Source: Eubacterium sp.
GTDB lineage: Bacteria > Bacillota > Clostridia > Lachnospirales > Lachnospiraceae
Length of the DNA: 33,901 bases
Reading direction: 5' to 3'
Assembly: GCA_017477505.1 (NCBI GenBank)
Contig: JAFUVQ010000008.1
Span: 1 to 33,901 of the forward strand
Part shown: one piece after another, positions 7,977 through 31,270 of the stretch
How the letters are laid out: each line of letters begins with the position of its first letter
How positions within the stretch are numbered: the stretch's first letter is position 1
Notes under the pieces: generated by a model
The model's input: only the letters and a program-made list of their open reading frames with translations
Told to the model about the DNA's origin: nothing
Database searches by the model: none
Made by a program: the position numbers and the translations under genes

Positions 7977-8022
7977 GGAATCCTCTTTTGCGTCAGTCTC
8001 TCAAAAAGTCAATCACCCTCAA

Positions 8023-9924: not shown

Positions 9925-9960
9925 ATTAATTTACCTCAAATTCTTTAAAGGTTCTTATAT

Positions 9961-12441: not shown

Positions 12442-12472
12442 GTTTTCTCCTTTGGGAACCATCCAGCCTAGT

Positions 12473-13231
12473 CTACCAACCCATACCGTCCAAAAATTCC
12501 TGAAGTCCTCCGCGGCGTTCCTTCATATCATCTGTTCCATAATCCGGCATTCTGTATTCTCCTACAATTCCTCCATCTCTCAGATATATAACTCTGGAAC
12601 CTCGAAGCGCAGTCTTTAAATCATGTGTTACCATCACAATACTCTGTCCTTTCTTGTGAAGTCCTGTAAACACATCCAGCACATCCTGTCCTGAGGATGA
12701 ATTAAGTGCGCCGGTAGGTTCGTCAGCAAAGAGAATCCTGGGATTATTTATCACAGCCCTTACAATACCTACTCTTTGGCATTCCCCACCGGATAACTGG
12801 TTGGGATATTTCTTCCACATATCTTCAGCTATTCCCACCTGTTTCAGAAGAGTTTTCACACGCTCCACCAGCTCCGGAGAATTCTTCTGTACTACGAGTG
12901 CACCTGTCATTATATTGTCAAATACATTCATATTATCTAACAGATATATACTCTGGAATACGAAACCTGCATGGTTTCTTCGGAATATAGCAAGCTGATC
13001 ATTACTGTAACCCGATATCTCATCATTTCCAAAAAAGACCTTTCCCATGGACGGCTTATCCATTCCGGAGAGTGCATATAACAGTGTACTCTTACCGGAT
13101 CCCGATGAACCCATTATGACTGTAAAATCCCCCTCCATGATCTCAAGATCCATATTCTTAATAACATGCTGCTGAAGTCCAGCGTTTGAGAAAGATTTAC
13201 AAAGTTTCTCAGTTCTCAATACTATATCCAT
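12473..13231 (-). CDS. ABC transporter ATP-binding protein (MacB/LolD type)
   Basis: A 252-residue ATPase with every motif of the family: Walker A GSSGSGKST (41-49), Q-loop Q93, signature LSGGE (146-150), Walker B ILFADE (166-171) and switch H203. Sequence pattern and size place it with the LolD/MacB/BceA ATPases that partner FtsX-type permeases. It is the first gene of the operon, directly behind a -10 element and a four-unit 11-bp operator array. The reading frame ends in TAG, as do the next gene and nudC, which bears on the interpretation of the TAG inside the AgrC-like kinase. The C-terminal 20 residues are specific to this protein. Confidence 0.94.
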   Translation of the reverse strand: MDIVLRTEKLCKSFSNAGLQQHVIKNMDLEIMEGDFTVIMGSSGSGKSTLLYALSGMDKPSMGKVFFGNDEISGYSNDQLAIFRRNHAGFVFQSIYLLDNMNVFDNIMTGALVVQKNSPELVERVKTLLKQVGIAEDMWKKYPNQLSGGECQRVGIVRAVINNPRILFADEPTGALNSSSGQDVLDVFTGLHKKGQSIVMVTHDLKTALRGSRVIYLRDGGIVGEYRMPDYGTDDMKERRGGLQEFLDGMGW

Positions 13232-13360: not shown

Positions 13361-13396
13361 TAAAGCATGGCACGCGCAAGTGCGCCGGCCAAATGC
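13361..13396 (-). terminator. Possible terminator of nudC
   Basis: On the minus strand nested arms GCAT/ATGC, GGC/GCC and GCGC/GCGC form an imperfect stem with an ACTT loop, starting at the nudC stop and followed by TTTATTC. The stem has a two-base bulge and a two-base internal mismatch. It separates nudC from the ABC operon promoter. Confidence 0.4.
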
Positions 13397-14256
13397 TAAA
13401 AGCATTCAGTCGACGCACTCTTGAACATCATCATCATTTCATTTGTAAGACTCAAGTTATTCGGCTGCAGCACGATATCTTCTCTCTTAACCCATTCCGC
13501 ATACTTCAGCTCATTTTCATCCATCTGTATCTCTACATCACCGTCTGCTTCACAGTAAAATCCCACCAGTATATCCTGTGCCATTCCCCACGGCTGTGAT
13601 TTATAATATCTTATGTTCTTAACCCTTACGCCGGTCTCTTCCATAACTTCACGGGCAACAGTTTCTTCCAGTGTTTCTCCGATTTCCGTAAAACCGGCAA
13701 CCAGAGCATTGTGACGATAGCCCCTTCGGTACCTTGTAAGTAGAATGCTGTCTCCCTTAGTTACACCAACGATAACTGCAGGATTGATTCTCGGATAGAT
13801 TACATTTTGGCAATCGGGGCAGGTAAGAGCACGCTCCGTTTCACTGTTGAGCAAAACTGTACCGCACTTACCGCAAAACTTATTATCCCTGTACCATTTC
13901 CACAAATGGAACGCCGTAAAAGCAACAAATATATTTACATCGTCTTCTCCGGAAAATCTGTCCCGAATTTCCCGGATTGTATAATACTCTCCTGCCGAAT
14001 CGCGAACCAGATTCTGTGTATAACTATTCAAAAGAAAATATCTCTTATCGTCCACCGAGAAAAGATACACCACGGAAAACGGTTCCTCCGTTTTATCAGT
14101 CTTTAAATCTGCGTATGTGAGAAATCTCATTTTCCTTTCATCATCACCGGCATATATCTTGTCTTCTTCATTGAAGATTAAAATGAAATCCTCATCCTCC
14201 GGTTTAATATTCTTAAAACTATTGTCAATTTTACTAGGGTAGATATCCTGTATCAT
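13396..14256 (-). CDS. nudC: NudC-type NAD(H) pyrophosphatase / RNA deNADding Nudix hydrolase
   Basis: A 286-residue NudC homologue. It carries the zinc ribbon C128-C131-C146-C149, a perfect Nudix box from G188 (GFTEIGE) through REVMEETGV (202-210), and the SQPW motif (220-223) that marks NADH pyrophosphatases. The residues after SQPW are GMAQD rather than the PFP seen in Escherichia coli. The family splits NADH/NAD to NMN(H) and AMP and removes NAD caps from RNA. The N-terminal domain (1-120) is divergent. AAAGGA sits 8 nt before the ATG. It lies 94 nt after the Sel1-repeat gene and the gap contains a pair of 12-bp direct repeats, so it may be separately controlled. Confidence 0.9.
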   Translation of the reverse strand: MIQDIYPSKIDNSFKNIKPEDEDFILIFNEEDKIYAGDDERKMRFLTYADLKTDKTEEPFSVVYLFSVDDKRYFLLNSYTQNLVRDSAGEYYTIREIRDRFSGEDDVNIFVAFTAFHLWKWYRDNKFCGKCGTVLLNSETERALTCPDCQNVIYPRINPAVIVGVTKGDSILLTRYRRGYRHNALVAGFTEIGETLEETVAREVMEETGVRVKNIRYYKSQPWGMAQDILVGFYCEADGDVEIQMDENELKYAEWVKREDIVLQPNNLSLTNEMMMMFKSASTECF

Positions 14257-14350: not shown

Positions 14351-15508
14351 TTACTTCACTTCAATCCCTACTTCTTTCATATGAGCCTTATCTGTATCGT
14401 CTGGCTCATATCCGGCATCCAGTGATTTTTGGAACCATTCCTTTGCCTTATCCAAGTCCTTCTCTCTGCCTTTTCCTTCAAAATAGCAGTCCCCACAAGC
14501 AAACATGGCAACAGGAATCCCCTGTTCTGCGGCGAGTGAGTATAATTCTGCAGCCTTATCATAATCTAAATCTACACCCTCACCTTTATAATAGCAGAAT
14601 CCCAGGTCAAACTGTGCCAAAGCATAACCCTGATCTGCGGACTTTGTATAATACTCAACTGCCTTTTCGTTGCTCTGTTCAAAATGGTCTCCATGGCGGT
14701 AAAACTGTGCGATGGTATAAAGTGCATCAGGATTCCCCTGGTCTGCCGCACTCTGTATATACTCGAGTGCCTTATCAATATCCTTTTCTACTCCCTCACC
14801 ATGATAATAACAGTATCCGATATTATACTGTGCTTCAGGAAGTCCCTGCTCGGCAGCCGGAAGATACCATTTTGCAGCCTCTTTCATATCTACGTCTCCG
14901 ACCATACCGAACTGATAGAACTGACCGAGACGTTTCTCTGCCTCAGGATAATCCTGCTCAGCAGCAAGCTTATAGTATTTAAATGCATTCTCATAATCCT
15001 GCTTGACTCCTATTCCTGTATCGTAGCAATAACCGACATAATACTCAGCCGCAGAATCACCCTTGTCAGCAGCAGGGAGCAGGTATTCATTAAATGCTTT
15101 TTCAGCATCAGCCTCAACACCCACGCCATTGAGGTACCCAAAGCCTACCATAACCTGTCCGGGAAGATAGCCCTTATCAGCAGCCTGCTGGTAGTACTCA
15201 AATGCCTTTTTCTCATCAACTTCAACGCCAATGCCTCTCAGATAGCACTCACCCAATCCAAAAACTCCTACAGGCTCACCCTTATCTGCAATCTGCCGGA
15301 AAATCTGATAGGCTTCATCATTCTTCCCTGCATCAATCATATCCAGCGCCTGGTTCAATAATGCTTCAGCAGATCCATCTGCTGTTCCCTCTGTAGCTAC
15401 AGCTGTCTCAGTTGTAGCCTGTGTATCTACTGTCTTCGTATTTCCACATCCTGAAAGCAGAACAAGTGCTACTGCAGGCAGAATTATCCACGTTTTCTTC
15501 ATTTTCAT
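14351..15508 (-). CDS. Sel1-repeat lipoprotein
   Basis: A 385-residue exported lipoprotein made of Sel1-like repeats. The signal peptide has a lipobox LLSGC with acylated C21, then a Thr/Ala-rich linker (22-48). Eight repeats of about 36 residues follow from about 77 to 368, each with the pattern A-LG-YY-G-GV--D--KA--Y---AA-QG. Repeats 4 and 6 are degenerate in the GxGV turn. Sel1 proteins form superhelical scaffolds for protein binding; on a Gram-positive surface this would be an assembly or ligand platform. It is the last gene of the LytTR operon, 19 nt after the serine peptidase. The second ATG (15502) is better spaced from the AAAGG ribosome site than the first. Confidence 0.92.
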   Translation of the reverse strand: MKMKKTWIILPAVALVLLSGCGNTKTVDTQATTETAVATEGTADGSAEALLNQALDMIDAGKNDEAYQIFRQIADKGEPVGVFGLGECYLRGIGVEVDEKKAFEYYQQAADKGYLPGQVMVGFGYLNGVGVEADAEKAFNEYLLPAADKGDSAAEYYVGYCYDTGIGVKQDYENAFKYYKLAAEQDYPEAEKRLGQFYQFGMVGDVDMKEAAKWYLPAAEQGLPEAQYNIGYCYYHGEGVEKDIDKALEYIQSAADQGNPDALYTIAQFYRHGDHFEQSNEKAVEYYTKSADQGYALAQFDLGFCYYKGEGVDLDYDKAAELYSLAAEQGIPVAMFACGDCYFEGKGREKDLDKAKEWFQKSLDAGYEPDDTDKAHMKEVGIEVK

Positions 15509-15527
15509 TACCTTTTTTACCTTTCAA

Positions 15528-17021
15528 TTATTTAGCTTTCTCGCCGATCCAATTATCCAGGATTGATATAATCTCTTTCTTCTTATCTTTCGGCATATTC
15601 GTGATGCAAGATGAGTGCGGCAAAGTCGGATGAACGAATATCTTTATATTATCACTCTCCTTCACCGGCATGGCAACACTATACCATGGATCAGTAGAAC
15701 CATATATCATAAGATGCTTTGCGGTGGTAGTCTCCATGGAGGCAACCAGGTTGTCATGAAGTTCGCTGTCATATTTAAATGCATTCTTCTCTTCCGGTGT
15801 AAACACCATGTTCTGCATGAATTCAGCTTCCATATCCTCTGTAACGGATAATCTGTCGTCCAGACCCTCTTTTTCAAGAGCTTCCCTTAGATATGAGAAG
15901 TTATAATGATACTGACCATATTCGGTACATGCATTTACATAGAATGGCCATGGCAGGTAATTGGTGCTCCAGTCACGTGGATCCTGCACTTTAAGAAGAA
16001 GTTTGTATAATGCAGCTGCCTTCTTCTCCTTCTCTTTATCAGAGCCATCAGGCATATCCAGAACCTTCTTGATTTTCTTAAAATCATGACCAGTCTGCCA
16101 GAACTGCACTGAAAATTCCAGCACATTCATATCATAGAGACGTTCAGGCGTGGCATAATCCACATAATTTGTTGCAACCAGGTTAACTTTTTTCTCATAC
16201 TTAGGCATAAGATCATTCTTATATCTCATGGCCTCAACCTGGAAGGCCAGAATCATATCTCTATAATTCTTCGCCTGTTCTTCTCCAAAGGCTTCATTTC
16301 CTATTGTATTATAAACATAGTCATAGAAACGCTCATCGTCCAAACCATCCGAACAAGGAGCAACATAAGCCAGATAAACAAGCATATCATCCGGATAATA
16401 ATAACTGTATACGTTTGTTTCAAGGCCGCCGCGACTTGTACCGGTGGAAATCCATTTGTCCCCAAGCACAGATTTAAGAGTCGTGTAAATGTGATGATAA
16501 TCAGCTGCCGTATTCTCGGACGTATAATAAGTCCAATATTTAAGAGCCTCGTTGCTCATATCATCCGGCCTTGACTTACCGCATAAACGGTGTTCAACAT
16601 GAATATAATTACCATTGTAAAGCTTTGCCGACTCCGCTATATTTTCAAAAGAAAGCATACCCGGCATAATATTATCCATAAGTCCGTAGCCATCAGTTTC
16701 AAGAACACTTATCTTTGAATTTTTACGGACATTAACAACTACCCTTTGAGGGAATTTTCCTGCAGACGGGTTATTCCAATCCAGCGGTTGCTGATAAGTC
16801 ACAACATATTTTTCTGATATAAATGAAAATGGAATGTGCCATATTTCTTTAACTTCACTAACGCCATCCATGGCAGAAAGTTCAGTGATTCTCTTCTTGT
16901 TTCGTTTAAATCCGAGGCAGTATACAAGGATAAGAATAATCACGATTGCTCCAAATACTATCAGAAAACGCTTAGGTATCCCCTTCTTTTTTTCTTCAAT
17001 CTTATTATCTTCTTTCTTCAT
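15528..17021 (-). CDS. Membrane-anchored S37/S28-like serine peptidase (tripeptidyl aminopeptidase type)
   Basis: A 497-residue alpha/beta hydrolase with a short lysine-rich cytoplasmic N-terminus and one TM anchor (about 18-37), so the catalytic domain faces outward. The nucleophile is S196 in GTSRGG; the acid and base are probably D444 (GSTDPW) and H469 (LPHSSC). EHRLCGKSRP at 143-152 is the EHRxxGxSRP hallmark of S28/S37 peptidases, which remove di- or tripeptides from free N-termini, often after proline. GGAGGGGAG precedes the ATG. It sits 17 nt after the ABC-2-like gene in the LytTR operon, with an M13 metallopeptidase two genes away, so the operon encodes two surface peptidases. Exact specificity is not readable. 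Confidence 0.82.
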   Translation of the reverse strand: MKKEDNKIEEKKKGIPKRFLIVFGAIVIILILVYCLGFKRNKKRITELSAMDGVSEVKEIWHIPFSFISEKYVVTYQQPLDWNNPSAGKFPQRVVVNVRKNSKISVLETDGYGLMDNIMPGMLSFENIAESAKLYNGNYIHVEHRLCGKSRPDDMSNEALKYWTYYTSENTAADYHHIYTTLKSVLGDKWISTGTSRGGLETNVYSYYYPDDMLVYLAYVAPCSDGLDDERFYDYVYNTIGNEAFGEEQAKNYRDMILAFQVEAMRYKNDLMPKYEKKVNLVATNYVDYATPERLYDMNVLEFSVQFWQTGHDFKKIKKVLDMPDGSDKEKEKKAAALYKLLLKVQDPRDWSTNYLPWPFYVNACTEYGQYHYNFSYLREALEKEGLDDRLSVTEDMEAEFMQNMVFTPEEKNAFKYDSELHDNLVASMETTTAKHLMIYGSTDPWYSVAMPVKESDNIKIFVHPTLPHSSCITNMPKDKKKEIISILDNWIGEKAK

Positions 17022-17038
17022 GTGTAACTCCCCTCCAC

Positions 17039-17905
17039 TTATTTATCTGTTCCATCAACCATCGGATCATTCCCGGACAGATTCTCATACTCGTTTATGG
17101 GTTCACCATCCAAACCAGTAGATTCTGCTGATGGCTCATCCGTATTTTTACCCTTACATACTTTCTTCTTCCGCTCCTTTTTCTTAAGTTTAAATACAAG
17201 TATCGAAAGGAGTACCGGAATAACAAGGTGTAAAAGGAATAAAATCAGATAAAGCACTTCTCCATCGGAATAGAGAAGCTGTGCATAAGCGACGTCTGCA
17301 GTTACTCTCGGCGCAACCATAATTGCTATCTGGAACTGGAATCCGCCGAAATATGCGGTCTCATTAAAGAATACCGCTGCAGCGTATGCAAAAACTATAT
17401 ATACTATAGCCGGAATGACAGGAAATGCGAATATATACAGTGTCAAAAGAGCAATGCCATAACTTGTGATACTTGCCAGGCAGTCGATTCCGATACGAAG
17501 TGCAAGTATTCCTATCTGATCAGATGTGCTGTGAGCAGCGAAACAAAGTCCCAGGAGTAATGTAACGAGCAGCATCAGAATATGGCAGCATATAAGTATC
17601 ATCGAACCGGCGCAGAATTTTGAAAGCACTCCCGCTGCTCTTGTCTTCCCTTTCTCCTCGACCATGATGATCGATGTCCGTGTGAACTTCCTGCAATATA
17701 CACTTATGATAAGTGCAACCCCCGGCAGCCAACTGAATATGTTATATATATAATCATACATCCCAAAGAAGTAGGTTTCATCATTCCAGTATTCAAACTT
17801 AGTATATATCGTTATTGCCAGCGCTCCGAGGTATGTCAGGATGATCATCACTATGAATCTTTTCTTTTTAATTATATTCTTTATATCTTCTCTAAATAGT
17901 TCCAT
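17039..17905 (-). CDS. ABC-2-type-like six-helix membrane protein without partner ATPase
   Basis: A 288-residue membrane protein with about six hydrophobic helices. A basic N-terminal stretch (IIKKKRFIVM) leads into the first helix, as in ABC-2 permeases, and the long loop after helix 2 (RKFTRTSIIMVEEKGKTRAAGV) resembles the coupling region of that class. The C-terminus is a cytoplasmic basic segment then a Glu/Asp-rich tail. The start at 17905 is set by GGGGGAG just upstream; the longer frame would overlap the M13 gene. No ATP-binding protein is encoded in this operon, so it must borrow one, act alone, or be a different membrane-protein family. It overlaps nothing and is 10 nt after the M13 gene. 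Confidence 0.7.
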   Translation of the reverse strand: MELFREDIKNIIKKKRFIVMIILTYLGALAITIYTKFEYWNDETYFFGMYDYIYNIFSWLPGVALIISVYCRKFTRTSIIMVEEKGKTRAAGVLSKFCAGSMILICCHILMLLVTLLLGLCFAAHSTSDQIGILALRIGIDCLASITSYGIALLTLYIFAFPVIPAIVYIVFAYAAAVFFNETAYFGGFQFQIAIMVAPRVTADVAYAQLLYSDGEVLYLILFLLHLVIPVLLSILVFKLKKKERKKKVCKGKNTDEPSAESTGLDGEPINEYENLSGNDPMVDGTDK

Positions 17906-17915
17906 AGTGCTCCCC

Positions 17916-19961
17916 CTACCATATCTTAACCCTGTATTCAGGTTCGATATACATGCCATCACCCGGACCTATATCATATTCCTCATAAAACTCATCATAC
18001 TGCATCAGAACATAATTAATTCTGAGATATGCGAGAGGATGAGGGTCCGTTTTGAGTCTTTCCATGATATCACGCTTTGATTCAAGCCTCTGCCAATGTA
18101 CGGCATACTCTCTGAAGAATCTGTCATAATCAAAATCATCATAATCCTTTGAGAGAATCAGGCATACTCTAACCCCTTCTATATCCGCAATCGCTTCGCC
18201 TGTTATATCATTGGATGCTTCGTAATACCCCGATTGAGGAAACGTTTCAAATGAGGAAAGCTGACTGGTGATTCTGGTTGACATGGCTTTCCATTTCTTA
18301 AGATCTTCTGCACTGATAAAATCAACCAGATTTCCATTTGCATCATAATGAATTCCATGACTGTCAAATGCATGAGATAATTCATGGCCCAGTATAGTAC
18401 CGATGAATGCAAGCTTCTTCTCAAACGGATCATCGAGTGAATAAGCAGGATCTTCAAGTATTCCTATATCGATGAATATTGAATTCATTGGTCTAAAATA
18501 ATATGAATTAACATTAGTTGTCGAAGTGTCTGAATTATAAATATCCCAGAGAACTTTACCTTCAGCAATCTCAGTCATATCGCCAATATGCTCATATTTA
18601 AATTTATTCAGTACGCAGAGTGCATCAAGAAATGATCCGCCCTCCTCTGCGGAAACCAGTTCTACACCGGAATAATCAGCTGTATTCGAAGGTTTCATGA
18701 CAAACTCTCTTATCTTATCGAGTTTGTCAGCAATCGCTTTCTTTCCATCCTCAGAAAGTGTTTCATTTTCATTTATTTCTATCTTGTATTTTTCCTTAAG
18801 CATATGGATGAGGTTCAGCATGTCATCGCAAACAGCCTGATCAAAATAGTAATCTATGTAAGCCTGATCCATAGCACCGCCAAGGTAGGATGACTTCAGG
18901 ATTTCAAAGAAATACCATTCTTTATCTTTGTCAATCCTCTCTTCGAAAGGATTAGTCTTGTCCATGGATGTATTTCTAAGTAAATCAAATGCATCGCTGT
19001 CCAGATATTTGATTGCTTTCTCACAAAGACGTAACTTGAAATACGACTTGATGTCCTCAACATTATTTTCGGTATATATAGTCTCGAGCTTATCAAGATA
19101 AACGAGTGCGCCGGAGTAATTCTTACAATCATTAATGGAATAATTATCCAGCATTTCTCCGAGAGGATATGCACCGGCTTTCTCGAGCAGTTCTTCTCTG
19201 GTATGTGCGCCTGCAAAATCTGCAGAATCTGTTAAAGTCAGATGTATCATCTCTGATTCGAAGCGGAAGCCCTGACTGAGAGTCTTATCTATGTCGCCCT
19301 TCGTATATCCACAGCGGTCAAGAAGATACTCCACCTGCTTCTCCTTGGTCTGTTTCTTCTCGAAAGCATCCGTTGTCATTTCCACATAGTAGTCCGCCTT
19401 TTCAAGAGTCGGATCCGGCATATAGACCATAAGAGTAAAAGCATCTTCTATGCCCGCATTATTGTCATAATCAAGCTCCACAAGTGACATGGCAAATGGA
19501 TTGGAAGCGTTATCGATCATATAAGCTGATACATCATCAAGAGAATTGATATCGTCGATATATTTTAAATACTTTTTGAGCGGCTCTACTCCAAGTGAAT
19601 TACGATAGTCAACATCATAAAGACCGTCGGCGATTCGGACCAGTTCGATATTCTTGTTTTGGACGGATTCATCATTTATAAGTGCTCTTTTGTTGGCATC
19701 CACTTTCCTTGCCACGTCTCCAAATGGACCTATGGCATAACTGAAATCCCTCTCCCTTGTCGTAGTCCAATCATGATTCACGTAAGCTGCAAAATCGTCC
19801 TTCAGACTTACATTCGCAGTTTCATCAATAGTCTCGAAAATGTTCGAGTTTGTCCATTTATACGTAAACCCGTCAGTCGTTACATTTTCGCCACAACCAG
19901 CAGTGCCGAAAAGCATGGCTGCTGCAACGGTAAATGACATAAACTTCTTAAAAATCTTCAC
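17916..19961 (-). CDS. M13-family (neprilysin/PepO) metallopeptidase lipoprotein
   Basis: A 681-residue surface zinc metallopeptidase. The lipobox is GTAGC near residue 23. The zinc site is HELSH (526-530) with E589 and D593 in GEAIAD; H641 and R647 in DPHPLAYLR match the transition-state residues of the family, and NSYY before the strand NSIFIDIGIL corresponds to the NAYY substrate motif. The ending RVKIW is the usual M13 C-terminus. M13 enzymes cleave small peptides before hydrophobic residues and often inactivate signalling peptides. The start is GTG with GGGGG about 8 nt upstream. It lies in the LytTR operon between the adenylate cyclase and the ABC-2-like gene. Confidence 0.93.
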   Translation of the reverse strand: MKIFKKFMSFTVAAAMLFGTAGCGENVTTDGFTYKWTNSNIFETIDETANVSLKDDFAAYVNHDWTTTRERDFSYAIGPFGDVARKVDANKRALINDESVQNKNIELVRIADGLYDVDYRNSLGVEPLKKYLKYIDDINSLDDVSAYMIDNASNPFAMSLVELDYDNNAGIEDAFTLMVYMPDPTLEKADYYVEMTTDAFEKKQTKEKQVEYLLDRCGYTKGDIDKTLSQGFRFESEMIHLTLTDSADFAGAHTREELLEKAGAYPLGEMLDNYSINDCKNYSGALVYLDKLETIYTENNVEDIKSYFKLRLCEKAIKYLDSDAFDLLRNTSMDKTNPFEERIDKDKEWYFFEILKSSYLGGAMDQAYIDYYFDQAVCDDMLNLIHMLKEKYKIEINENETLSEDGKKAIADKLDKIREFVMKPSNTADYSGVELVSAEEGGSFLDALCVLNKFKYEHIGDMTEIAEGKVLWDIYNSDTSTTNVNSYYFRPMNSIFIDIGILEDPAYSLDDPFEKKLAFIGTILGHELSHAFDSHGIHYDANGNLVDFISAEDLKKWKAMSTRITSQLSSFETFPQSGYYEASNDITGEAIADIEGVRVCLILSKDYDDFDYDRFFREYAVHWQRLESKRDIMERLKTDPHPLAYLRINYVLMQYDEFYEEYDIGPGDGMYIEPEYRVKIW

Positions 19962-19992
19962 GCTTTTTACCCCCTACAAATTTCATCATAAT

Positions 19993-22812
19993 TCATTTTC
20001 TTACAAACCTGAATACGCCTTGCTTCTCTTCATGGTCAGGATTTATGATATAGTCCAGATATTTATCAGTCACATAATCGCTATCCCCTGAAGCATTAAT
20101 GCCCTGGAGTATATCAGCTGCTTTTTCTTTTTGCCCGTCTCTGAACATTCTGATAGCTTCACCAAGCATGTTGCTGTTATGATGCCTTCTTTTTCTTTCT
20201 TCCTCAGGAAGACAGTCAAGAACCTCATAGATTTCCTTAACCTCATTTACTCCCGCAACCTGAACAAAGCCGAGATATCTCAGATCAAGAGCATCCGGAT
20301 CGGTAAGCTTATCAACCGTATCCTTAGATACGAGCACTGCTGTTTTATATTGTTTTGTAAGACTTTCAAATCTTGATGAAAGATTGACCACATCAGAAAT
20401 AACTGTTCCCGAAAGGCGTTCTTCCTCTCCAACAATACCTATCTGTGCTATTCCGGTATGTATACCGATACCTATATTTATTTCATCTACACCTATTTTT
20501 TCAGCTATACCCGGATCCAGGACGATAGCTTTATATATGTCTATTCCACTCTTCAGAGCATCATCTGCCGATTCAAAGAGTGCCATGATGGCATCACCGA
20601 TATACTTATCAATAAAACCATTATTCTTTCGTATTATCGGACCTGCCACTCCATAGATGACATTTACAAATTCAAAATTCTCCTTTGTTGTCATCTTTTC
20701 TGATATAAGAGAGAATTTTCGTATATCAAGGAAAAGCACTGTAAGTTCGCGACTGTACGAATCTCCAAGCTGAAGATCGGTAAATTCCTCTTTTCCAAGA
20801 AGAGTTCTGAACTGTTCGGGAACAAACTTATAATAGAATTTCTCTGTTCTGTCCTTCTCTTTAAAGAGCTTTTCAAGATTCTGGCCCATTGAGTTGACTT
20901 CATTACAGATTTCTCCCATCTCATCCTTTGACTTATACTCAATCCTGGCGGAGAGATCACCTTCTGAAATTTTTTTAACAACTCCGGTGGCTTTTTTAAT
21001 CATTCTCCTGATATAGAGGGACATAAGCATATTTGTAGCCGCAAAGAAAATAATCACCAGACATACATATACAATTATCTCAACCCATAGCACTCCTCTG
21101 TCTAAATAAAAGGAATCATTCATTGTTGCGACCTTAAGATAAATATTCCCTGCAGAGCCGCCGTCATGTATAAGCGAATAAGCTGAGATACTGCTCTTCA
21201 TAGACTCTGAGGACAGCCACTTGTTTATATCCTCATTAAAATACACATCATCAGTACCTTGTATATCCTCTAATTCTGTTTCTTCTTCTTTTGTAAAAAA
21301 CGGCATGAAGGACTTTTTTTCATCTGCCAGGACTGCCGCTCTCGCAGTATCTGTACGCTGTACAATGGAGAATGTATAATCCTCGCTCCATTTTTCCTTA
21401 TGGCCTGTACTGATTTCAACAATCTTTTTCTGAAGTTCACGATATGCATTGCCTGTAGACTCATTTGCTTCAAGAAGATCAGAAAAGTCATAGCCATCCA
21501 ACTCATTTGCCCCGAAATGAGTTATGATACTAAGCTCATTTTTTACATTCTGTTTATTCTGTTCTATGCTTTTATCATATATATTTACGCCGATGGCGAT
21601 TGCTATTATGGTAAATATCGGAACAGTAACCATTATCTGCTTATAGAATATAGTCTTTCTTCTTATAATGAGATTGATAATAACCCCATAGGTACACATA
21701 TCCTGAAGGAAATAAGTCAATTTAAGCAGAAATACAAGATAATGTTTATCTATCTTAAGAAGAGTGTCCCTCTCAGAGATTTCCCCATCCTTATAGGTGA
21801 CAAGGCCATCAGAAAGACATATTGCGAGTACCGGCCTGCCATTCTCATCCTTATAGGAGTCTATAAAGCTTATCTGCCTGTTTTCAAGTCCGGCCTCTCT
21901 GCTTAGATCAAGTAATTCTTCGGCTGTACCCTCACAGATTTTGTAAATCTTTTCCGGCCTGTTCTCATCAAAAACATACAGCTCATTATCAATTAGAACC
22001 GCTTCTGTAAAGTAGGGTGATTTCCCGGTATCAAAATGATAAATGACTTTTTCCAGGGGCTCATCAAACTCTGTCCTATAAACATTTCCGTCACTTCTGA
22101 CAAAAAGAAATGAACCATCTATCGGAATAACACTTACCGTAAAGGTTCCATTTGCATCTGAAGGATAATCATGACTTATCTCAACTTTTCCGGTATTTGT
22201 ATCTATTCGATAGAGTTTTATATTATCCCTGTATATAAAACCAAATGTTATATAACCGTCAAAGTAATGAAGACGGCTTATCCCGGATTTCAGCTGTTCC
22301 TCATTTTCGCCATACTCTATATCACATATCTTTTCTACAAATTTATAATTTTTACTGAGCTTAACGACGCCTTCTTTTGTAAAGGATTTACTTACACGGT
22401 CCTGAAAATATGACCTTACAGCATAGATATCTCCCTGATCGGTAATAACCAGATTGGATGGTGAAAACTTATCTTTGTTACCCTTATCTGCGAAGATATC
22501 ATTGGTAAATGCATAGTCTTTTTCTTTTGTTTCTATGTCATATACTGCTGCATATCCGTAAAAGCCGATATCCGATATGGCTGCAACAGTTCCGTTATCA
22601 TTAATGGAAAATGCCTGTACATCCTTAAACTCAGACTCTTTGACAGGTTTCTTAGTATCATCTGTAACTCCATTTATACGGATAGATATATAATTATCAG
22701 TCTGTGTACAGACTAAAAATACTAATGTAACCGCATAAATAAGCAGAAACCATCTGAGTTTCCCACATAAAGTAAATATGATTTTCTTAATGAACAATAA
22801 AATCTTTTTCAT
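19993..22812 (-). CDS. Transmembrane class III adenylate cyclase with two extracytoplasmic sensor regions
   Basis: A 939-residue receptor cyclase. TM1 (about 20-36) leads to a beta-rich outer region (37-355) whose repeated strand pattern (VYDIETKEKDY, LYRIDTNTGKV, VYRTEFDEPLEKV) suggests a beta-propeller. Two helices (about 357-383 and 392-411) flank a basic inner loop RRKTIFYK, then a second outer domain (412-572), TM4 (573-600), HAMP (600-650) and a class III cyclase domain (about 685-865). Catalytic residues are complete: metal-binding D696 and D740, K736 and D807 for adenine recognition, N810 and R814 for the transition state. The Lys/Asp pair predicts ATP, not GTP. A helical tail (875-939) follows. 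The ribosome site is weak; the gene begins 9 nt after DUF308. Confidence 0.9.
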   Translation of the reverse strand: MKKILLFIKKIIFTLCGKLRWFLLIYAVTLVFLVCTQTDNYISIRINGVTDDTKKPVKESEFKDVQAFSINDNGTVAAISDIGFYGYAAVYDIETKEKDYAFTNDIFADKGNKDKFSPSNLVITDQGDIYAVRSYFQDRVSKSFTKEGVVKLSKNYKFVEKICDIEYGENEEQLKSGISRLHYFDGYITFGFIYRDNIKLYRIDTNTGKVEISHDYPSDANGTFTVSVIPIDGSFLFVRSDGNVYRTEFDEPLEKVIYHFDTGKSPYFTEAVLIDNELYVFDENRPEKIYKICEGTAEELLDLSREAGLENRQISFIDSYKDENGRPVLAICLSDGLVTYKDGEISERDTLLKIDKHYLVFLLKLTYFLQDMCTYGVIINLIIRRKTIFYKQIMVTVPIFTIIAIAIGVNIYDKSIEQNKQNVKNELSIITHFGANELDGYDFSDLLEANESTGNAYRELQKKIVEISTGHKEKWSEDYTFSIVQRTDTARAAVLADEKKSFMPFFTKEEETELEDIQGTDDVYFNEDINKWLSSESMKSSISAYSLIHDGGSAGNIYLKVATMNDSFYLDRGVLWVEIIVYVCLVIIFFAATNMLMSLYIRRMIKKATGVVKKISEGDLSARIEYKSKDEMGEICNEVNSMGQNLEKLFKEKDRTEKFYYKFVPEQFRTLLGKEEFTDLQLGDSYSRELTVLFLDIRKFSLISEKMTTKENFEFVNVIYGVAGPIIRKNNGFIDKYIGDAIMALFESADDALKSGIDIYKAIVLDPGIAEKIGVDEINIGIGIHTGIAQIGIVGEEERLSGTVISDVVNLSSRFESLTKQYKTAVLVSKDTVDKLTDPDALDLRYLGFVQVAGVNEVKEIYEVLDCLPEEERKRRHHNSNMLGEAIRMFRDGQKEKAADILQGINASGDSDYVTDKYLDYIINPDHEEKQGVFRFVRK

Positions 22813-22821
22813 ATGTATTAA

Positions 22822-23355
22822 CTACTCTATAACAACAATTGCTGTTTTCCGGCAGGCTGTGACAATTCTCATTACAGCCGAATAGAAAACTCCTATACCA
22901 AAAATAATACCGGTTGTATTCAATTGCTTAATGAATACTATACAGAGAATCGCCAGCACAATATCTATAATGCCATGAGTCAGCTTCAGCTTCCAGCTGC
23001 TGGACCCTGTCCTTCTGGTCTCAAGTGTTCTCAGTACTCTGACAACCCCTGAGAAGCCATGTATTCCTATCAGATATAGCAGCACATAATAATGAGGGAC
23101 ACTTGTAAGTGACCCTGTCAGTACACCGAAATCAAACCAGATAACACCCATAAAGAGCGACTCTCTTCCACCCACCATAAAACGAGCCATAGTGATGTAG
23201 TACCAGATGGAGCTTATTCCTGTTGCGATAAAATAAAAGGCCAGAATGATAACAATAAGGGGATAGCTTTCCTTTGGATAAATCATCATAACCAGAGCCC
23301 CAAGAATCATGATAAGAGCAAGCGCTATTTCTTTTATTCGCTGTAATTTAGTCAT
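22822..23355 (-). CDS. DUF308 (HdeD-like) membrane protein
   Basis: A 177-residue membrane protein of about six helices in paired hairpins, matching DUF308/HdeD. Helix starts include LALIMILGALVMMI, LIVIILAFYFIATG and a C-terminal ITTGIIFGIGVFYS-like segment (138-158). HdeD has been tied to acid stress in enterobacteria but the molecular role is unknown. The start overlaps the DUF6765 stop by 8 nt and GGGAG sits 8 nt upstream, so translation is coupled. The stop is TAG, and the adenylate cyclase ATG is in the same frame four codons later; readthrough would fuse the two proteins. Confidence 0.85.
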   Translation of the reverse strand: MTKLQRIKEIALALIMILGALVMMIYPKESYPLIVIILAFYFIATGISSIWYYITMARFMVGGRESLFMGVIWFDFGVLTGSLTSVPHYYVLLYLIGIHGFSGVVRVLRTLETRRTGSSSWKLKLTHGIIDIVLAILCIVFIKQLNTTGIIFGIGVFYSAVMRIVTACRKTAIVVIE

Positions 23356-24454
23356 TTCTTATCTCCCGTACAAATCCAACCAGTTTATTCCCTGACTGAT
23401 ATATCCTGTCACATACCAACCCTTTATGGGCTATTGCACCGTCTATAAATGAGCCATAAAATGTACCTGATTTTTTATCCTTCGGAGCATCTAAATATTC
23501 ATTCTTATACTTATTTACATCGAAATCCTCTATCGTCTCTCCGGACAACTCCTCACCAAATGCTTTCCAGTCCAAAGATGCTGAAAGCTGGCGTTTCCTA
23601 AGAATCCCGTCAATTCTATCTTCGTAATCCTTTATGGCATCAAAGTCATAAACATCTGTCTCAAAGGAGTCGTTCTCACCACGAATAAACTTCATCGCAT
23701 ATATCATCTGACAGAAGGCGTGTCTGTAATCTGAAGGATTATCCTTTATCATTACCCTATAATCATCCCATGCAGGAAGGTACATATATTTGATAAAAGA
23801 ATAGTCGGGAAGATGTCCTGCTCTACCATGTCCAAGATTCATGATAGTATTTTCATTTCTCTGATAAAGGCTGTTTGTATAAATACTTTTATCCAGATCA
23901 TCCGGCGAAGAAAGGCTGTGCTGAAACTTTATCTTACGCTTTTTTTCTCCTTTCTCATCGGAAATCAATTCATAAAATTCATCATTTGTATTATTGATTA
24001 CAAGTGACGGTGTTCCGGCGAAATACCGGTGTGCCCATGTATCAGCCAGAACATGCATGGCAATACCGACTGACTGAAGAGATTTACCTTTTGCAAGTAC
24101 CACTATATCCTTTACAAGATCTCCATTGGGACCACAAATCAGACGGTACTTATCCAAATATTTTTTAGGACGCCACTTATCCTTAGTAGCATATAGATTT
24201 CCGGGTAAAAAATGAAAAGATGACCATATTCTCGTGATATTCTGAAGCCCTATGATATCTGTTCTGGCATCCATCATCTCCATCTGAAGCTGTGTAGTAG
24301 CTGCTTTTACAGGAGCTTTAATTCCCGTAAGGTAAGTTGCTGAACAAAGATCTACAAATTGAGCAGAATAACAGATATCAAGACATTCCGAGTGGGAATA
24401 TCCGGCCAGGAATGCAGCGCAGTATGTTGCATAATAATGAAAATCCTCCTGCAT
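23348..24454 (-). CDS. DUF6765-family protein, zinc-phospholipase/nuclease-like helical fold suspected
   Basis: A 368-residue soluble protein without signal peptide that I recognise as DUF6765, a family of unknown function common in Clostridia (opening MQEDFHYYATYCAAFLAGYS). H6, H21, H81 and the series H134-V-L-A-D138-T-W-A-H142 recall the HxxxD metal ligands of zinc-dependent phospholipase C and S1/P1 nucleases, which are all-helical with tri-zinc sites. That resemblance is my inference. The C-terminal third is acidic and lysine-rich. GGAGG lies 8 nt upstream of the ATG and the gap to the preceding gene is 3 nt, so it is firmly inside the LytTR operon. Confidence 0.75.
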   Translation of the reverse strand: MQEDFHYYATYCAAFLAGYSHSECLDICYSAQFVDLCSATYLTGIKAPVKAATTQLQMEMMDARTDIIGLQNITRIWSSFHFLPGNLYATKDKWRPKKYLDKYRLICGPNGDLVKDIVVLAKGKSLQSVGIAMHVLADTWAHRYFAGTPSLVINNTNDEFYELISDEKGEKKRKIKFQHSLSSPDDLDKSIYTNSLYQRNENTIMNLGHGRAGHLPDYSFIKYMYLPAWDDYRVMIKDNPSDYRHAFCQMIYAMKFIRGENDSFETDVYDFDAIKDYEDRIDGILRKRQLSASLDWKAFGEELSGETIEDFDVNKYKNEYLDAPKDKKSGTFYGSFIDGAIAHKGLVCDRIYQSGNKLVGFVREIRND

Positions 24455-24457
24455 ATA

Positions 24458-24973
24458 TTACGCCTCCTCTTCTGCAGACTTTTGCTTGATAAGTTTTTCA
24501 ATCATTATCGCGGAATAAAAAAGATCGATCAGAATAAAAACCATGGATAAATCAACCATTAATGATGCTATAAATGTAAGATTTATAGTTGATTTTCCGG
24601 TTACAATACCGATAGGATATGCAGCAAGTCCTACAATATTGATAAGAGCAACAATTGATGTGTAAATATAAAACCTTTTCCTGTTATTCTGATTTTTTCC
24701 AAACCTGACTGCATTTTTTCCAACCATGAGATGGATATTAATTATAATGGCAAACAAAATGAAAAGGACAATAACTGTGCATACAATGGCAAATGACCTT
24801 TCTACTCCATTTTCCACAGATTCTTCTACCAAAATATCAAACTTTAGATCACCCATGATGAGCTCCAGTAAAAGTTTTACCACAATCCAGATTCCAAAAA
24901 AAATGTAGCCTCGCCCGCCTATGGCAAGATTATTCTTAAAACTTCTTAGTTTTATATCTTTTTCTGAATTCAT
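24458..24973 (-). CDS. Four-helix membrane protein, unknown function
   Basis: A 171-residue membrane protein I cannot assign. Four helices are visible: YIFFGIWIVVKLLLELI, AIVCTVIVLFILFAIIIN, IYTSIVALINIVGLAAY and FIASLMVDLSMVFILIDLF, with short polar loops; the N-terminus is basic and the C-terminus ends in a charged EEEA. The second ATG is preferred because AGG is 7 nt before it, whereas the first ATG two codons upstream is too close to that site. It is 36 nt after the LytTR regulator and 3 nt before the DUF6765 gene, and may be a partner of either. It contains no recognisable enzyme motif. Confidence 0.65.
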   Translation of the reverse strand: MNSEKDIKLRSFKNNLAIGGRGYIFFGIWIVVKLLLELIMGDLKFDILVEESVENGVERSFAIVCTVIVLFILFAIIINIHLMVGKNAVRFGKNQNNRKRFYIYTSIVALINIVGLAAYPIGIVTGKSTINLTFIASLMVDLSMVFILIDLFYSAIMIEKLIKQKSAEEEA

Positions 24974-25009
24974 ATTCATACCTGCTCAAACGATTTTTAG
25001 TATTATTAT

Positions 25010-25702
25010 TTACATTGTCATATATTCAATATACTTTGCCGTAACGCTGTCTTTCTTTGCTTTAGGAAGTGTGTATGTGCTTCCATCGGAAAGGGAAACT
25101 ATTGCACCACTTATCTTTTCGATATGGTTTGGATTTACCAGAAGCCCTCTGCGGAGTTCAATGAACTTATCTCCAAAGAGTCCTGCCACATCGGAATAAT
25201 TGATATGCACCCGTTCTTTATTCCTGTTCTGATATATAACTGTGTAATGTCTGTCGCTTTCCACTTTGATTACCTTCTCCGGGTGAAAAACATGAATTTC
25301 CTTACCGGCATTCAGCACAATAGGAACAGAGTACTGTGAATTGATCCTTAAGCTTACACGCGCAAAGGCTTTGACTATATCTGCCTCTTCACAAGGTTTT
25401 ACCAGATAATCAACTGCCTGAACCTTGAATGCATCAATTGCGTGATCAAGACTTGTAGTACAAAAGATTATCTGCGAGTCCGGCGATAATTCTTTGACTG
25501 TCCTGGCTATATCCATACCATTTTCATTTTCAAGATAAATATCCTGAAATATAATGGAATATAAATTTCCTTTTTGTATACTTTCTATCAGCTTAGCTCC
25601 GGTACTGAAGTATTTCATCTCAAGGTCATCCGCTATGTCCATAAGAGAAAATCTTATTTTTTCAGCATCAGCATTAGTATCGTCACAAATCGCTATCTGC
25701 AT
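25010..25702 (-). CDS. LytTR (AgrA-like) response regulator heading the nine-gene operon
   Basis: A 230-residue regulator. The receiver has acidic pocket DD (7-8), phospho-acceptor D54 in FQDIYLEN and K102 in LVKPCEEAD; the LytTR DNA-binding domain spans about 128-226 (VIKVESDRHYTVIY, FIELRRGLLVNPNHIEKI). LytTR proteins bind two 9-bp direct repeats 12 bp apart, and such a pair lies just upstream of this gene's promoter. The ATG at 25702 is chosen over a TTG two codons earlier because AAGGA is 8 nt from the ATG. Divergent from it is an AgrC-like kinase with an internal TAG. No AgrD or AgrB gene was found nearby, so the signal is unknown. Confidence 0.92.
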   Translation of the reverse strand: MQIAICDDTNADAEKIRFSLMDIADDLEMKYFSTGAKLIESIQKGNLYSIIFQDIYLENENGMDIARTVKELSPDSQIIFCTTSLDHAIDAFKVQAVDYLVKPCEEADIVKAFARVSLRINSQYSVPIVLNAGKEIHVFHPEKVIKVESDRHYTVIYQNRNKERVHINYSDVAGLFGDKFIELRRGLLVNPNHIEKISGAIVSLSDGSTYTLPKAKKDSVTAKYIEYMTM

Positions 25703-25744: not shown

Positions 25745-25774
25745 TTTATATCACAATTATTTTATCAACTTCAA
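25745..25774 (-). promoter_or_regulatory. Predicted promoter of the LytTR operon
   Basis: On the minus strand TTGAAG (25774-25769), an 18-bp spacer and TATAAA (25750-25745) form a plausible but suboptimal promoter, with a start near 25738 and a leader of about 36 nt. The LytTR repeat pair ends 8 bp upstream of the -35, the position seen in AgrA-activated promoters. Confidence 0.55.
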
Positions 25775-25782
25775 TACTGTGC

Positions 25783-25812
25783 ACCAAATGATTTAAATTA
25801 TGCACGAATTGT
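25783..25812 (-). promoter_or_regulatory. Candidate LytTR operator: two 9-bp direct repeats, 12-bp spacer
   Basis: Read on the minus strand, ACAATTCGT (25812-25804) and TCATTTGGT (25791-25783) each match the LytTR consensus [TA][AC][CA]GTTN[AG][TG] at eight of nine positions, missing only the fixed G. The 21-bp period is the family's standard. The site lies between the divergent LytTR and AgrC-like genes and upstream of both predicted promoters. Confidence 0.65.
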
Positions 25813-25848: not shown

Positions 25849-25878
25849 GACTCTAAAATGACTATGTGGGAGTTGTTT

Positions 25879-27252
25879 ATGTATAGCCATGTTTATGATT
25901 ATAAAGTATGGGAAACTGTATTACATGCTTTTTTAAACTCGTTTCCCTATATGGTTCTTGCGCTTTATTCTTTCAGAGGACACTGGCGTTTCAGCAGAAA
26001 AGTTTCAATAACCATTCTGGCTTTCGCCGTAGTACTCCAAATGATCCTCATTCCTCTTATTCTTTTTTCCGAACATCCGGACAATCCTTTATTTGATCCA
26101 ATTCTATCCGCAATACATATCATTTTTTTCTTTGCTGTAGTAAAGGATCATATAGGAAAGCTGGTATTCTCGGTTCTTGTACTGACCAATCTGGGAACTC
26201 TGGTGGTAGTATGTGCTAAATATCTTGAATATTTCTTTTTTCCGGAACTTGCCATGCAGCGATTCCACTATACTTATCAGATTTTTAAAATATTTATGCT
26301 TATAATTATCATTCCTATTGCTTACCTGTTTATATTTAAAGATATAACTTCTTCAGGAGATAATTCATCAAATGGTAATACTTCAAACACTGATATGAGT
26401 GGTTATATGTGGAATTATCTCTGGCTCGTTCCCGCCGTATTTTACCTGATATGGTTAAACTCTTACACCGGAGATGACGCATTTACCAATCGTATTGATC
26501 TCAGCAGCACTCTATACCTTTTACTGATAGATGCCGGTTCAGTACTTATATACGGAACTATCATAAATACAGTAAGGCTATATGAAAAGAACACAGCTCT
26601 CCTTGCGGAAAACCATGTTCTTTCAATACAACAAATGCAATATGACAGTTTGAATGAGCGACTTGAAAACATGCGTCGTACACGTCATGATCTCCGTCAT
26701 CACACCGCCCTTCTCAAACAGATCAGAGAAAGCGGAAATTTATCCGAACTTGATGACCTGATAAAAATGTACACATAGAAGAATATTCTCGATCAACCGC
26801 TTATCAATTGTGAAAATGAAACAGTAAATGTAATTCTGGCACTATATTCTGAAACAACCTATAACAATAACATTTCATTTTCCATAAAAGCTAATATCCC
26901 TAAAGAAACTTTCGTTGATAAAAAGGACCTTTCAGTTTTATTTGGTAATATACTTGAAAATGCGTCAGATGCATGTAAAGATGTAGAAGGCGAACGGTTT
27001 ATCAACCTGAACGCCTCATATAATACTCCAGCTGACGGTCACAAATCCCTTACACTGATAGTAAAGAACAACTATGCTACAGAACCTTCCGTCTCAAGCA
27101 AAGGGATATTCCGTTCAACCAAACATTCAGGTGACGGTATAGGAATCAGTTCTGTACGGAACATCACAGAAAAATACAACGGTGCCAGCACATTCACTCA
27201 CCAGGACGGTATTTTTACAGTGTCAGTGATACTGTATGATAATTCTCTTTAA
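25879..27252 (+). pseudogene. AgrC-like sensor histidine kinase interrupted by one in-frame TAG
   Basis: A polytopic kinase with six or seven helices in its first 230 residues, a dimerisation helix with H270 in RTRHDLRHH, then TAG at 26776-26778 (codon 300). Past the stop the same frame stays open for 157 more codons and encodes an intact GHKL ATPase: N-box LFGNILENASDAC and G-box SGDGIGIS. Total would be 457 codons, normal for the family. No in-frame ATG, GTG or TTG able to restart translation follows the TAG until near the end. The upstream product ends after the phosphoacceptor helix, so it cannot autophosphorylate. A C-to-T change of CAG is one simple origin. Four genes in this window end in TAG, so general recoding is unlikely; a nonsense mutation, readthrough or a sequencing error remain open. 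Confidence 0.8.
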
Positions 27253-29953: not shown

Positions 29954-31270
29954 TTACTTTTTTCTAATTACTGTATTCACTCTGTCATTAGTGAATCCAA
30001 CACCAAGCGCAGTATATTTTGAACCTTCATTTACTAAAGCATGAGCCCATACAGGCTTCTTCCCCTGAGATATTATCTCTCTGCACATTCTATCAGCAAC
30101 TACTTTCGCCAGGCCTTGATGCCGGTAGTTTTCATCCGTCTCAACACCTATATCCACCTCATCTGAACTAACTGCAGCTGAAAATGCAACTGCTATAACT
30201 TTGTCTCCATCAAGTACAACAAATCCGAATCCATTTTTGAGGAACTGTTCTTTACTCGACCAGGAAAAGGCAGGAACAATATTTCCATGAATCCTGTCAT
30301 AATTTGATTCCGATATTGGCTCTACTTTGTATTTACATTCCGGAGCACTCATTAGCAAATCTACGAAGCGATACTCCACTCTTTTGTCAATCACAATATC
30401 ATCTTTATCGGAGAAGAATTCTATCGCCTTCGAATTATCTGTTATGAGAACAAATCTTCTCTCAGTATCCTTCACAAAATAATCCTGATATACTTTCTCA
30501 AGAAATGATTCCTTTACGCTGCCTGATAGATACGCAAAGCCACAGTAATGCCAGAACAACGCAGTCTTGGAGTCATCAGAAAAGATTATATTTCCATCCT
30601 GAAACCCTTCTGTTATCGAAAGAGGATAGACGACATTGCTAGTGCAATTTCTTGCAAATATTTCATCTTTATATTTCTCAAGCAATTCACGCGAATACTC
30701 TTTTGGCTTATCAGACTCTCTCACTATTTTCCATAGAGCCGCAGCAGCCTTAAGTCGTTCGTCAAAAATCAAAGTTGCTTCATCTGCACAGAAATCATGC
30801 ACAAACTTATTCCACTGAAGCATTGATTTATCATACTTTGCATAGCTTTTCTTTCCGTAGTAAATATCCAGAAGATCACCTAATGTAAATGACTCATCGC
30901 TCGTTTCTTTAACCGCCTTTGCAGTTGCCACCATATCCACATTGAACTTGAATCTTTCTTCTCCTGTCTGCTTAGAGAAGAAATCCCTGAATCTCGGGCC
31001 GAATGTAAAACCACATTCAATAAGTCCGGTATCCAAAGTAAGTTCCGTTACAACCTTCTTTCGACCGGCTCCAGACTTCTTATTATTCTTACTCTGTGGC
31101 AGTATCTTCTCTCCGGCAAAATATGCTTCTATCACTTTGTATAATTCAAACTTGCTGCCATCAGCTTTAAGACCATGAGCCTTACATATCTTAATTAGTT
31201 CCTCGCGGTACCAGTAATATTTGCAAAATTCGTCGTAGTCTTTTATTTTGCTAAACTCCGGGCGTTCCAT
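29954..31270 (-). CDS. SAP-DUF6434 protein fused to a C-terminal GNAT acetyltransferase
   Basis: A 438-residue three-part protein. Residues 1-52 form a SAP-type DNA-binding helix pair (YREELIKICKAHGLKADGSKF), 76-165 match DUF6434 (LTLDTGLIECGFTFGPRFR, ESFTLGDLLDIYYGKKSYAKYD), and the C-terminal third is a GNAT domain with the acetyl-CoA loop YRHQGLAK and the preceding strand DEVDIGVETDENY. DUF6434/SAP proteins are usually stand-alone and near 190 residues, so the added acetyltransferase is unusual. The middle (200-300) is unassigned. A nucleoid- or DNA-linked acetyltransferase is an inference. GGGGGAG lies just before the ATG. Terminators on both sides make it monocistronic. Confidence 0.75.
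   Translation of the reverse strand: MERPEFSKIKDYDEFCKYYWYREELIKICKAHGLKADGSKFELYKVIEAYFAGEKILPQSKNNKKSGAGRKKVVTELTLDTGLIECGFTFGPRFRDFFSKQTGEERFKFNVDMVATAKAVKETSDESFTLGDLLDIYYGKKSYAKYDKSMLQWNKFVHDFCADEATLIFDERLKAAAALWKIVRESDKPKEYSRELLEKYKDEIFARNCTSNVVYPLSITEGFQDGNIIFSDDSKTALFWHYCGFAYLSGSVKESFLEKVYQDYFVKDTERRFVLITDNSKAIEFFSDKDDIVIDKRVEYRFVDLLMSAPECKYKVEPISESNYDRIHGNIVPAFSWSSKEQFLKNGFGFVVLDGDKVIAVAFSAAVSSDEVDIGVETDENYRHQGLAKVVADRMCREIISQGKKPVWAHALVNEGSKYTALGVGFTNDRVNTVIRKK

Follow-up and report, generated by a model that had tools for sequence, protein, structure and literature searches.

What unites a response regulator, a receptor-type cyclase and two surface peptidases in one run of nine minus-strand genes is the question raised by the DNA analysed here, the 33,901-nucleotide (nt) contig JAFUVQ010000008.1 of a Eubacterium sp. 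(the window, which is the whole of contig G000:C34; G000 is its genome, an assembly of 3.22 Mb in 76 contigs that is 97% complete and related to rumen Lachnospiraceae). With a probability of roughly two in three, we read the locus as a surface-hydrolysis programme under AgrC/LytTR control, the operon being driven from a LytTR-activated promoter. An AgrC-type kinase would respond to a signal from outside the cell, probably a peptide, by phosphorylating the LytTR regulator, which would bind a direct repeat and raise its own operon from the predicted main promoter of the nine-gene unit (box 25780-25811, extended -10 25746-25753, minus strand). Raised with it would be an M13 metallopeptidase and its ABC-2-like partner, an S37 peptidase, a Sel1 lipoprotein, a receptor cyclase that would report on the outside, and a module comprising a four-transmembrane (4TM) protein, DUF6765 and DUF308. 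Since the apparent targets of the same regulator in relatives are surface hydrolases of these kinds too (M13, S37, S8, S41 and amidase), in part under dispersed promoters, the function is probably the signal-switched digestion or trimming of peptides at the cell surface.

The regulator, of AgrA/FsrA type (25010..25702, minus strand; Pfam Response_reg and LytTR), heads the operon. Among the 61 genomes compared at genus level, G000 included, its orthologs (E<=1e-50) are present in eight (G000, G020, G025, G026, G034, G038, G044 and G046), the other seven being 66-88% identical; in a sample of 392 genomes of the order, a cut-off of E<=1e-45 leaves only G000 and a single distant protein. Upstream lies a LytTR-type direct repeat with a 21-nt period (TGCACCAAATG N10 TGCACGAATTG on the plus strand, 25780..25811), oriented to the operon as are the target boxes of relatives, and 26 nt after it a predicted extended -10 (TGATATAA, 25746..25753, minus strand), the two together showing no mismatch to the combined motif. 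The box form TGCACCAATTG-N10-TGCACGAATTG, again with a 21-nt period, was found in seven of the eight regulator/kinase intergenic regions (six of these repeats were flagged by a repeat script, that of G046 was picked by eye). Applied to 31 loci, a weight matrix built from the seven intergenic boxes recovered its training sites together with 13 further rows (12 distinct places) at 19.6 bits or more; after mononucleotide shuffling, three passes yielded no hit above 17 bits and an average of 1.7 above 15 bits. These 12 additional places are found ahead of CPBP-cyclase (G026), M13 (G025:C103, G034, G038), S37 (G006, G050) and amidase genes (G025; G038 at 345 nt, with a short open reading frame (ORF) between) and of the gene for a 154-residue protein (G046), and, less clearly, at a SAP/GrpB gene (G006), after the kinase (G020) and after an amidase (G025). 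A box before M13 at G025:C197 scored 16.0 bits with the matrix and was recovered by mismatch patterns. The orientation of the box relative to the gene is constant where a target is evident, and in the window the box points to the operon.

Genome-wide scans for the box alone (at most two mismatches) gave 27 matches in 16 of the 61 genomes, against 2 for a reversed-pattern control. All 12 matches with no or one mismatch fall in regulator or target neighbourhoods or before the M13 gene at G025:C100, and six of the 15 with two mismatches are in such neighbourhoods; the other nine (G030 twice, G031, G037, G045 twice, G049, G051, G055) were taken as chance, not each of these places having been inspected. 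With the extended -10 added (at most three mismatches), 20 matches were obtained in 14 genomes against 1 in the control, and 16 of them are at regulator or target loci, including one before M13 on a contig without the regulator (G046:C65); the remaining four (G010, G017, G055, G056) were also taken as chance. Every one of the eight regulator genomes has a match to box plus -10, and among the 53 others G006 and G050 have such matches. Outside the genus (391 genomes) there are four matches at two mismatches and one in the control, a frequency near chance level; one two-mismatch match lies in another genus of the family (L206, G386:C44:62185-62247). The spacing is nearly constant: of 21 sites, 20 have a TGNTATAA-like sequence (at least 6 of 8 positions, with N taken as matching) at offset 26 (16 sites) or 25 (four sites) in nt after the box, the exception being the place after the amidase in G025. 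Within 70 nt, offset 26 holds the best TGNTATAA-like match at 11 of the 21 sites and offset 25 at four, and the summed score at offset 26 is 129 of 168 with 96 at the next best offset, several of these promoters being mutually related and hence not 21 independent cases.

The recurrence of box and -10 ahead of M13, S37, amidase and CPBP-cyclase genes makes it very probable that a set of surface hydrolases is under the control of the regulator, which in the window would share one operon with its targets. The common theme of the predicted targets, several of which carry choline-binding repeats, appears to be secreted or anchored hydrolases. Nine M13 units are headed by the regulator or by the box in seven of the eight regulator genomes (one each in G000, G044, G026, G034, G038 and G046, three in G025), with no M13 found at E<=1e-20 in G020. 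M13 lies within 10 kb of the regulator in six of the eight (rough chance 2e-11, assuming uniform placement). Regulator genomes also hold M13 genes without a box match (G038:C15, G044:C149), and no box match was found on any M13 contig of the 18 M13-bearing genomes that lack the regulator. Box-headed M13 is followed by a subtilase (S8) in G046 and at G025:C197, the G046 regulator is followed by an S41-type protein, and S37, present in four of the 61 genomes (E<=1e-20), is box-headed in G006 and G050. G006 (AC2029) keeps only the last 50 residues of the regulator (180-229; L091:8726-8875) beside its box-headed S37 gene. The motif precedes hydrolase genes even on a contig without the regulator, and its recurrence at dispersed genes suggests that control persists when the targets are scattered. 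The preliminary description had proposed a surface peptide-processing machine switched on by a two-component system; the recurring box and -10 support the switch, and the peptidases (M13 and S37, with S8 and S41 in relatives) do belong together in outline.

ORF analysis and a terminator scan bear out the nine genes in the order first described, with gaps of 36, 3, -8, 9, 31, 10, 17 and 19 nt (for the start codons then chosen) and no terminator between them. Between 14100 and 26000 four terminator-like sites were found, all within genes and none in the operon gaps, against 6.4 (standard deviation 2.1) in shuffles; a promoter-consensus scan inside the operon was uninformative (40 found, 40.0 expected). 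The nine genes would probably be transcribed jointly, as one unit, whose 3' end is undefined because the 94 nt between the Sel1 gene and the next same-strand gene (NUDIX, 13396-14256) also hold no terminator-like site. Further along the minus strand lies an OmpR-type two-component system adjoined by a beta-lactamase-family protein, an FtsX permease and an ABC ATPase (5950-13231).

Pfam backs the identities first given to the regulator, DUF6765, DUF308, the cyclase (HAMP and Guanylate_cyc), M13, S37 and Sel1, but provides no family for the 4TM and ABC-2-like proteins. Following the regulator on the minus strand, the 4TM protein (24458..24979, or 24458..24973; best Pfam match E 0.057, below the cut-off) also stands before DUF6765-DUF308 in several relatives. 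The DUF6765 protein (23348..24454; PF20551, E 2.7e-72) has no TM-like segment and many invariant His and Asp residues (H6, D35, H81, H134, D138, H142, H209, H214 and D217 in 17 sequences), a pattern like that of a metal-dependent hydrolase; its sole sequence match to a solved protein is at chance level (E 1.3) and was rejected, and our literature search found no paper on the family. DUF6765 matches are present in 16 of 99 genomes, and DUF308 (a membrane protein, 22822..23355 in the window) adjoins DUF6765 at 16 of 17 genus places, the remaining place ending at a contig edge. A second DUF6765-DUF308 pair is encoded in G000 at C31:24532-25611 (DUF6765 60% identical). The M13 (PepO/neprilysin) peptidase (17916..19961), which comes after the cyclase, has an N-terminus that looks lipoprotein-like by eye, aligns with PepO over residues 50-681 and carries HELSH at 526 and GEAIAD at 588, HExxH and GExxAD being the zinc motifs of peptidase M13. 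Its putative partner (17039..17905) is read as ABC-2-like because M13 genes of relatives are followed by ABC ATPase and permease genes: a relative of this protein follows M13 in G003, G026, G038 and G034, and an ABC ATPase with two permease-like proteins in G004, G007, G029 and G042. The S37-type serine peptidase (15528..17021; PF05576, E 3.8e-27) has a TM-like segment at 19-37, which would anchor it in the membrane, a nucleophile elbow, GTSRGG, at 194, and no PDB relative detectable by sequence. The Sel1-repeat lipoprotein (14351..15508; Pfam) was found at such a place only in the window.

Several observations weigh against an AgrC/LytTR-controlled hydrolysis programme. An in-frame TAG at 26776-26778 separates the H-box of the kinase from its ATPase domain. 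The regulator/kinase gap of G025 has no box, G000 has a single box match at the mismatch limits used, and for three of the 12 best box matches (G006:1189356, G020:C59:6441, G025:C197:6391) no hydrolase gene stands out as the target. The order 4TM-DUF6765-DUF308-cyclase-M13-ABC2-S37 was seen elsewhere only in G003 (Lachnospiraceae bacterium YSB2008), which lacks Sel1 and has neither a regulator ortholog nor a box match, so that the seven-gene core can exist without the regulator. No AgrB above the cut-off was found in G000, nor in G026, G044 or G046, and a search of selected stretches for small ORFs preceded by a ribosome-site-like sequence revealed no recognisable signal-peptide precursor. Six of the 15 genomes tested for cyclic-nucleotide (cNMP)-binding proteins gave no match at E<=0.01 (G006, G025, G034, G038, G046 and G005).

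The kinase, its in-frame stop and the LytTR box had all been overlooked in the preliminary description. Starting 155 nt from the regulator and divergent to it, the AgrC-type histidine kinase has its membrane part and H-box (RTRHDLRHH) at 25858..26778 on the plus strand, ending at the TAG, and its remainder in the same frame at 26779..27252 (plus strand), where a GHKL ATPase domain follows (Pfam HATPase_c_5, E 5.6e-17; the domain was checked in three loci). It is divergent to the regulator in all eight regulator genomes (with a CPBP gene between them in G044) and a single open frame in all seven relatives, interrupted only in the window. In G000 the switch may therefore be decoupled or out of order, provided that the base is real. 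That the system is decaying there, with a broken kinase leaving the operon constitutive or silent, is a prospect we regard as doubtful: the stop before the ATPase domain and the regulator remnant beside the S37 box of G006 speak for it, but the regulator, box, -10 and all operon genes are open in the window, and one assembly base may be an error.

The main rival is that M13 acts in feedback on the signal, a role that is compatible with surface hydrolysis. Here M13 and its ABC partner would process or destroy the peptide sensed by AgrC, making the locus a feedback device instead of a digestive one, which we consider somewhat less probable than decay. M13 is the commonest target and PepO-like, CPBP proteases recur in the neighbourhoods, and at the loci of the ten best of 25 M13 genomes (L069-L078) M13 has a relative of the ABC-2-like protein or an ABC gene as its neighbour every time, in G025 through a match in one search only. 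PepO degrades pheromones in other streptococci, whereas in salivarius streptococci pepO deletion was without effect on competence activation (PMC9173638). In G029 and G042 a Nif11-type precursor is encoded close to an M13-ABC operon, but no precursor gene was recognised at the LytTR loci, the weaker M13 relatives in G028 and at G044:C149 have no adjoining ABC gene, and the other targets (S8, S41, S37 and amidase, several with choline-binding repeats) resemble general exoenzymes. A classical AgrBD autoinducer was rejected on the lack of an AgrB above the cut-off in G000 and of a convincing precursor in the stretches searched; AgrB is present in G020, G025, G034 and G038, yet on contigs other than that of the regulator. 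The Nif11-type peptides, which have a double-glycine motif and lie near M13-ABC-permease-permease operons (L212:8427-8777, G029:C15, in LC2019; L210:2-85, G042:C243), were rejected as a partner of such operons, being found only at these two places, and are kept as a lead.

The cyclase (19993..22812, minus strand), with two predicted outer domains, HAMP and a catalytic domain, is predicted from its sequence to be a class III adenylate cyclase with cyclic AMP (cAMP) as its output. Class III adenylate cyclases rely on two metal-binding Asp, a Lys, a Thr or Asp, an Asn and an Arg, and in 45 sequences, the window included, Asp696 (45/45), Asp740 (44/45), Lys736 (45/45), Thr803 (44/45), Asn810 (45/45) and Arg814 (45/45) are kept. 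The best PDB matches of the domain are adenylyl cyclases (1e-17), guanylyl cyclases being weaker (2e-7). Four membrane spans are likely and three are clear, the second peaking at 1.36 in the window and above 1.6 in 42 of the 45 sequences; four spans would place both large N-terminal domains, which match no Pfam family, outside the cell. cNMP-binding matches were found in nine of the 15 genomes tested, that of G000 being a single weak one (37 bits, 200 aa). As four of the six negative genomes bear the long cyclase (G006, G025, G038, G046), G006 being a single-contig genome, the system does not include a canonical cAMP receptor in every genome. Signalling through cAMP and CRP was set aside, no clear receptor having been found in the genomes tested; thus, for the early proposal that the operon feeds cAMP signalling, the cyclase residues are right but the proposal is unproven. 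A two-layer sensor, in which the AgrC/LytTR switch turns on the peptidases, the cyclase reads their products, cAMP acts via a receptor of non-CRP/cNMP type and the DUF6765-DUF308-4TM module belongs to the output, seems to us unlikely.

Two-cNMP-domain proteins occur about 0.6 kb from short class III cyclase matches (L172, G028:C59, in NE2001; L173, G026:C232), a possible dedicated cyclase-receptor pair. A second long cyclase of G000 (38% identical; C48:24343-26826) is on a contig other than that of the second DUF6765-DUF308 pair. The window also encodes a SAP_new25-GNAT protein (29954-31270) whose N-terminal half has counterparts of 70-74% identity in G006, G025 and G028, each encoded within about 7 kb of a long cyclase; the one in G006 is joined to a GrpB domain.

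Defence against peptide antibiotics, with AgrC/LytTR sensing a bacteriocin that M13, ABC/FtsX and CPBP proteins would remove, is slightly less likely again than the two-layer sensor. The gene orders CPBP-LytTR-ABC2-M13-FtsX in G044 and M13-FtsX-ABC-cyclase-CPBP-S41 in RUI524 would suit it, as would a LanM-like enzyme near the G020 cyclase, but a LanM gene was seen at only one of the eight LytTR loci, the window shows no recognisable precursor or dedicated immunity family, and S37, S41, S8 and amidase would be odd in such a role. The 923- and 913-residue proteins beside the cyclase in G025 and G006, considered as a lanthipeptide system, are amidases with choline-binding repeats, and this candidate was dropped; in G020 alone the cyclase and the regulator pair have a LanM-like lanthionine synthetase nearby (L062:11330-14116, G020:C59).

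The full set and order of nine genes was found only in the window among the loci read in the 61 genomes, and the nine genes can be regarded neither as one conserved machine, as first proposed, nor as an ancient unit. In relatives the genes are scattered, which the preliminary description itself had named as evidence against the operon. The order 4TM-DUF6765-DUF308-cyclase recurs in G003 and RUG14124, the same families are near one another in RGIG3363, and in RUI524 and RUG13462 the cyclase is joined, in a different order, with M13, FtsX/ABC, S37 or S41, and CPBP. The cyclase family is widespread (50 loci in named genomes, the other named relatives being mostly metagenome-assembled genomes, many of ruminant-gut origin), and at 39 of these loci neither a kinase nor a further member of the nine families appears in the fetched flank, which is short in many cases. 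The least likely explanation, that unrelated same-strand genes with short gaps lie together by chance and the regulator acts only on itself, would suit a unit confined to the window and LytTR-4TM and S37-Sel1 junctions seen nowhere else in the loci read, but the same families reunite elsewhere in other orders and under the same box.

The novelty lies in the regulator box and its regulon in this group, in a single operon that unites the regulator with its targets and in the receptor cyclase inside it; a literature search on Lachnospiraceae LytTR, quorum sensing and proteases found no description of such a regulon. If correct, the surface-hydrolysis reading would define a regulator box and a surface-protease regulon in ruminant-gut Lachnospiraceae, with a 32-base motif of near-constant promoter spacing that is testable in cultured relatives, and would place a receptor adenylate cyclase inside a quorum-type switch, making a role for cAMP in these Firmicutes testable.

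Among known systems, class III receptor adenylate cyclases share the HAMP-linked catalytic domain with both metal Asp, Lys/Thr, Asn and Arg, but the protein in the window differs in its two outer domains without a Pfam family and in that no matching cAMP receptor was recognised. Streptococcal PepO belongs to the same peptidase family, M13; according to PMC9173638 its gene is not induced by the competence system, whereas M13 here is predicted to be a main target of the regulator. Staphylococcus aureus Agr (AgrC/AgrA) has the same regulator type with two direct repeats upstream of its promoters, and the box centre here, which would lie near -57 with a transcription start about 7 nt past the -10, is close to the position near -60 given for AgrA repeats (PMC4227749). 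The half-site here, TGCACSAA, differs from the AgrA sequence, no AgrBD was found at the locus, and the target genes are different. The closest known system is Fsr/gelE-sprE of Enterococcus faecalis. The gelatinase GelE is a metalloprotease. In Fsr the LytTR regulator FsrA directly controls gelE-sprE beside the regulator genes (PMC5454873), and the likeness would lie in a sensor kinase and a LytTR regulator that directly controls a gelatinase and a serine protease nearby. Unlike Fsr, the window locus has no AgrB/AgrD-like partner that we could find, it encodes M13 and S37 (with S8, S41 and amidase in relatives) instead of GelE and SprE, its regulator is in the same operon as the enzymes, and a receptor cyclase and a DUF6765-DUF308 module have been added.

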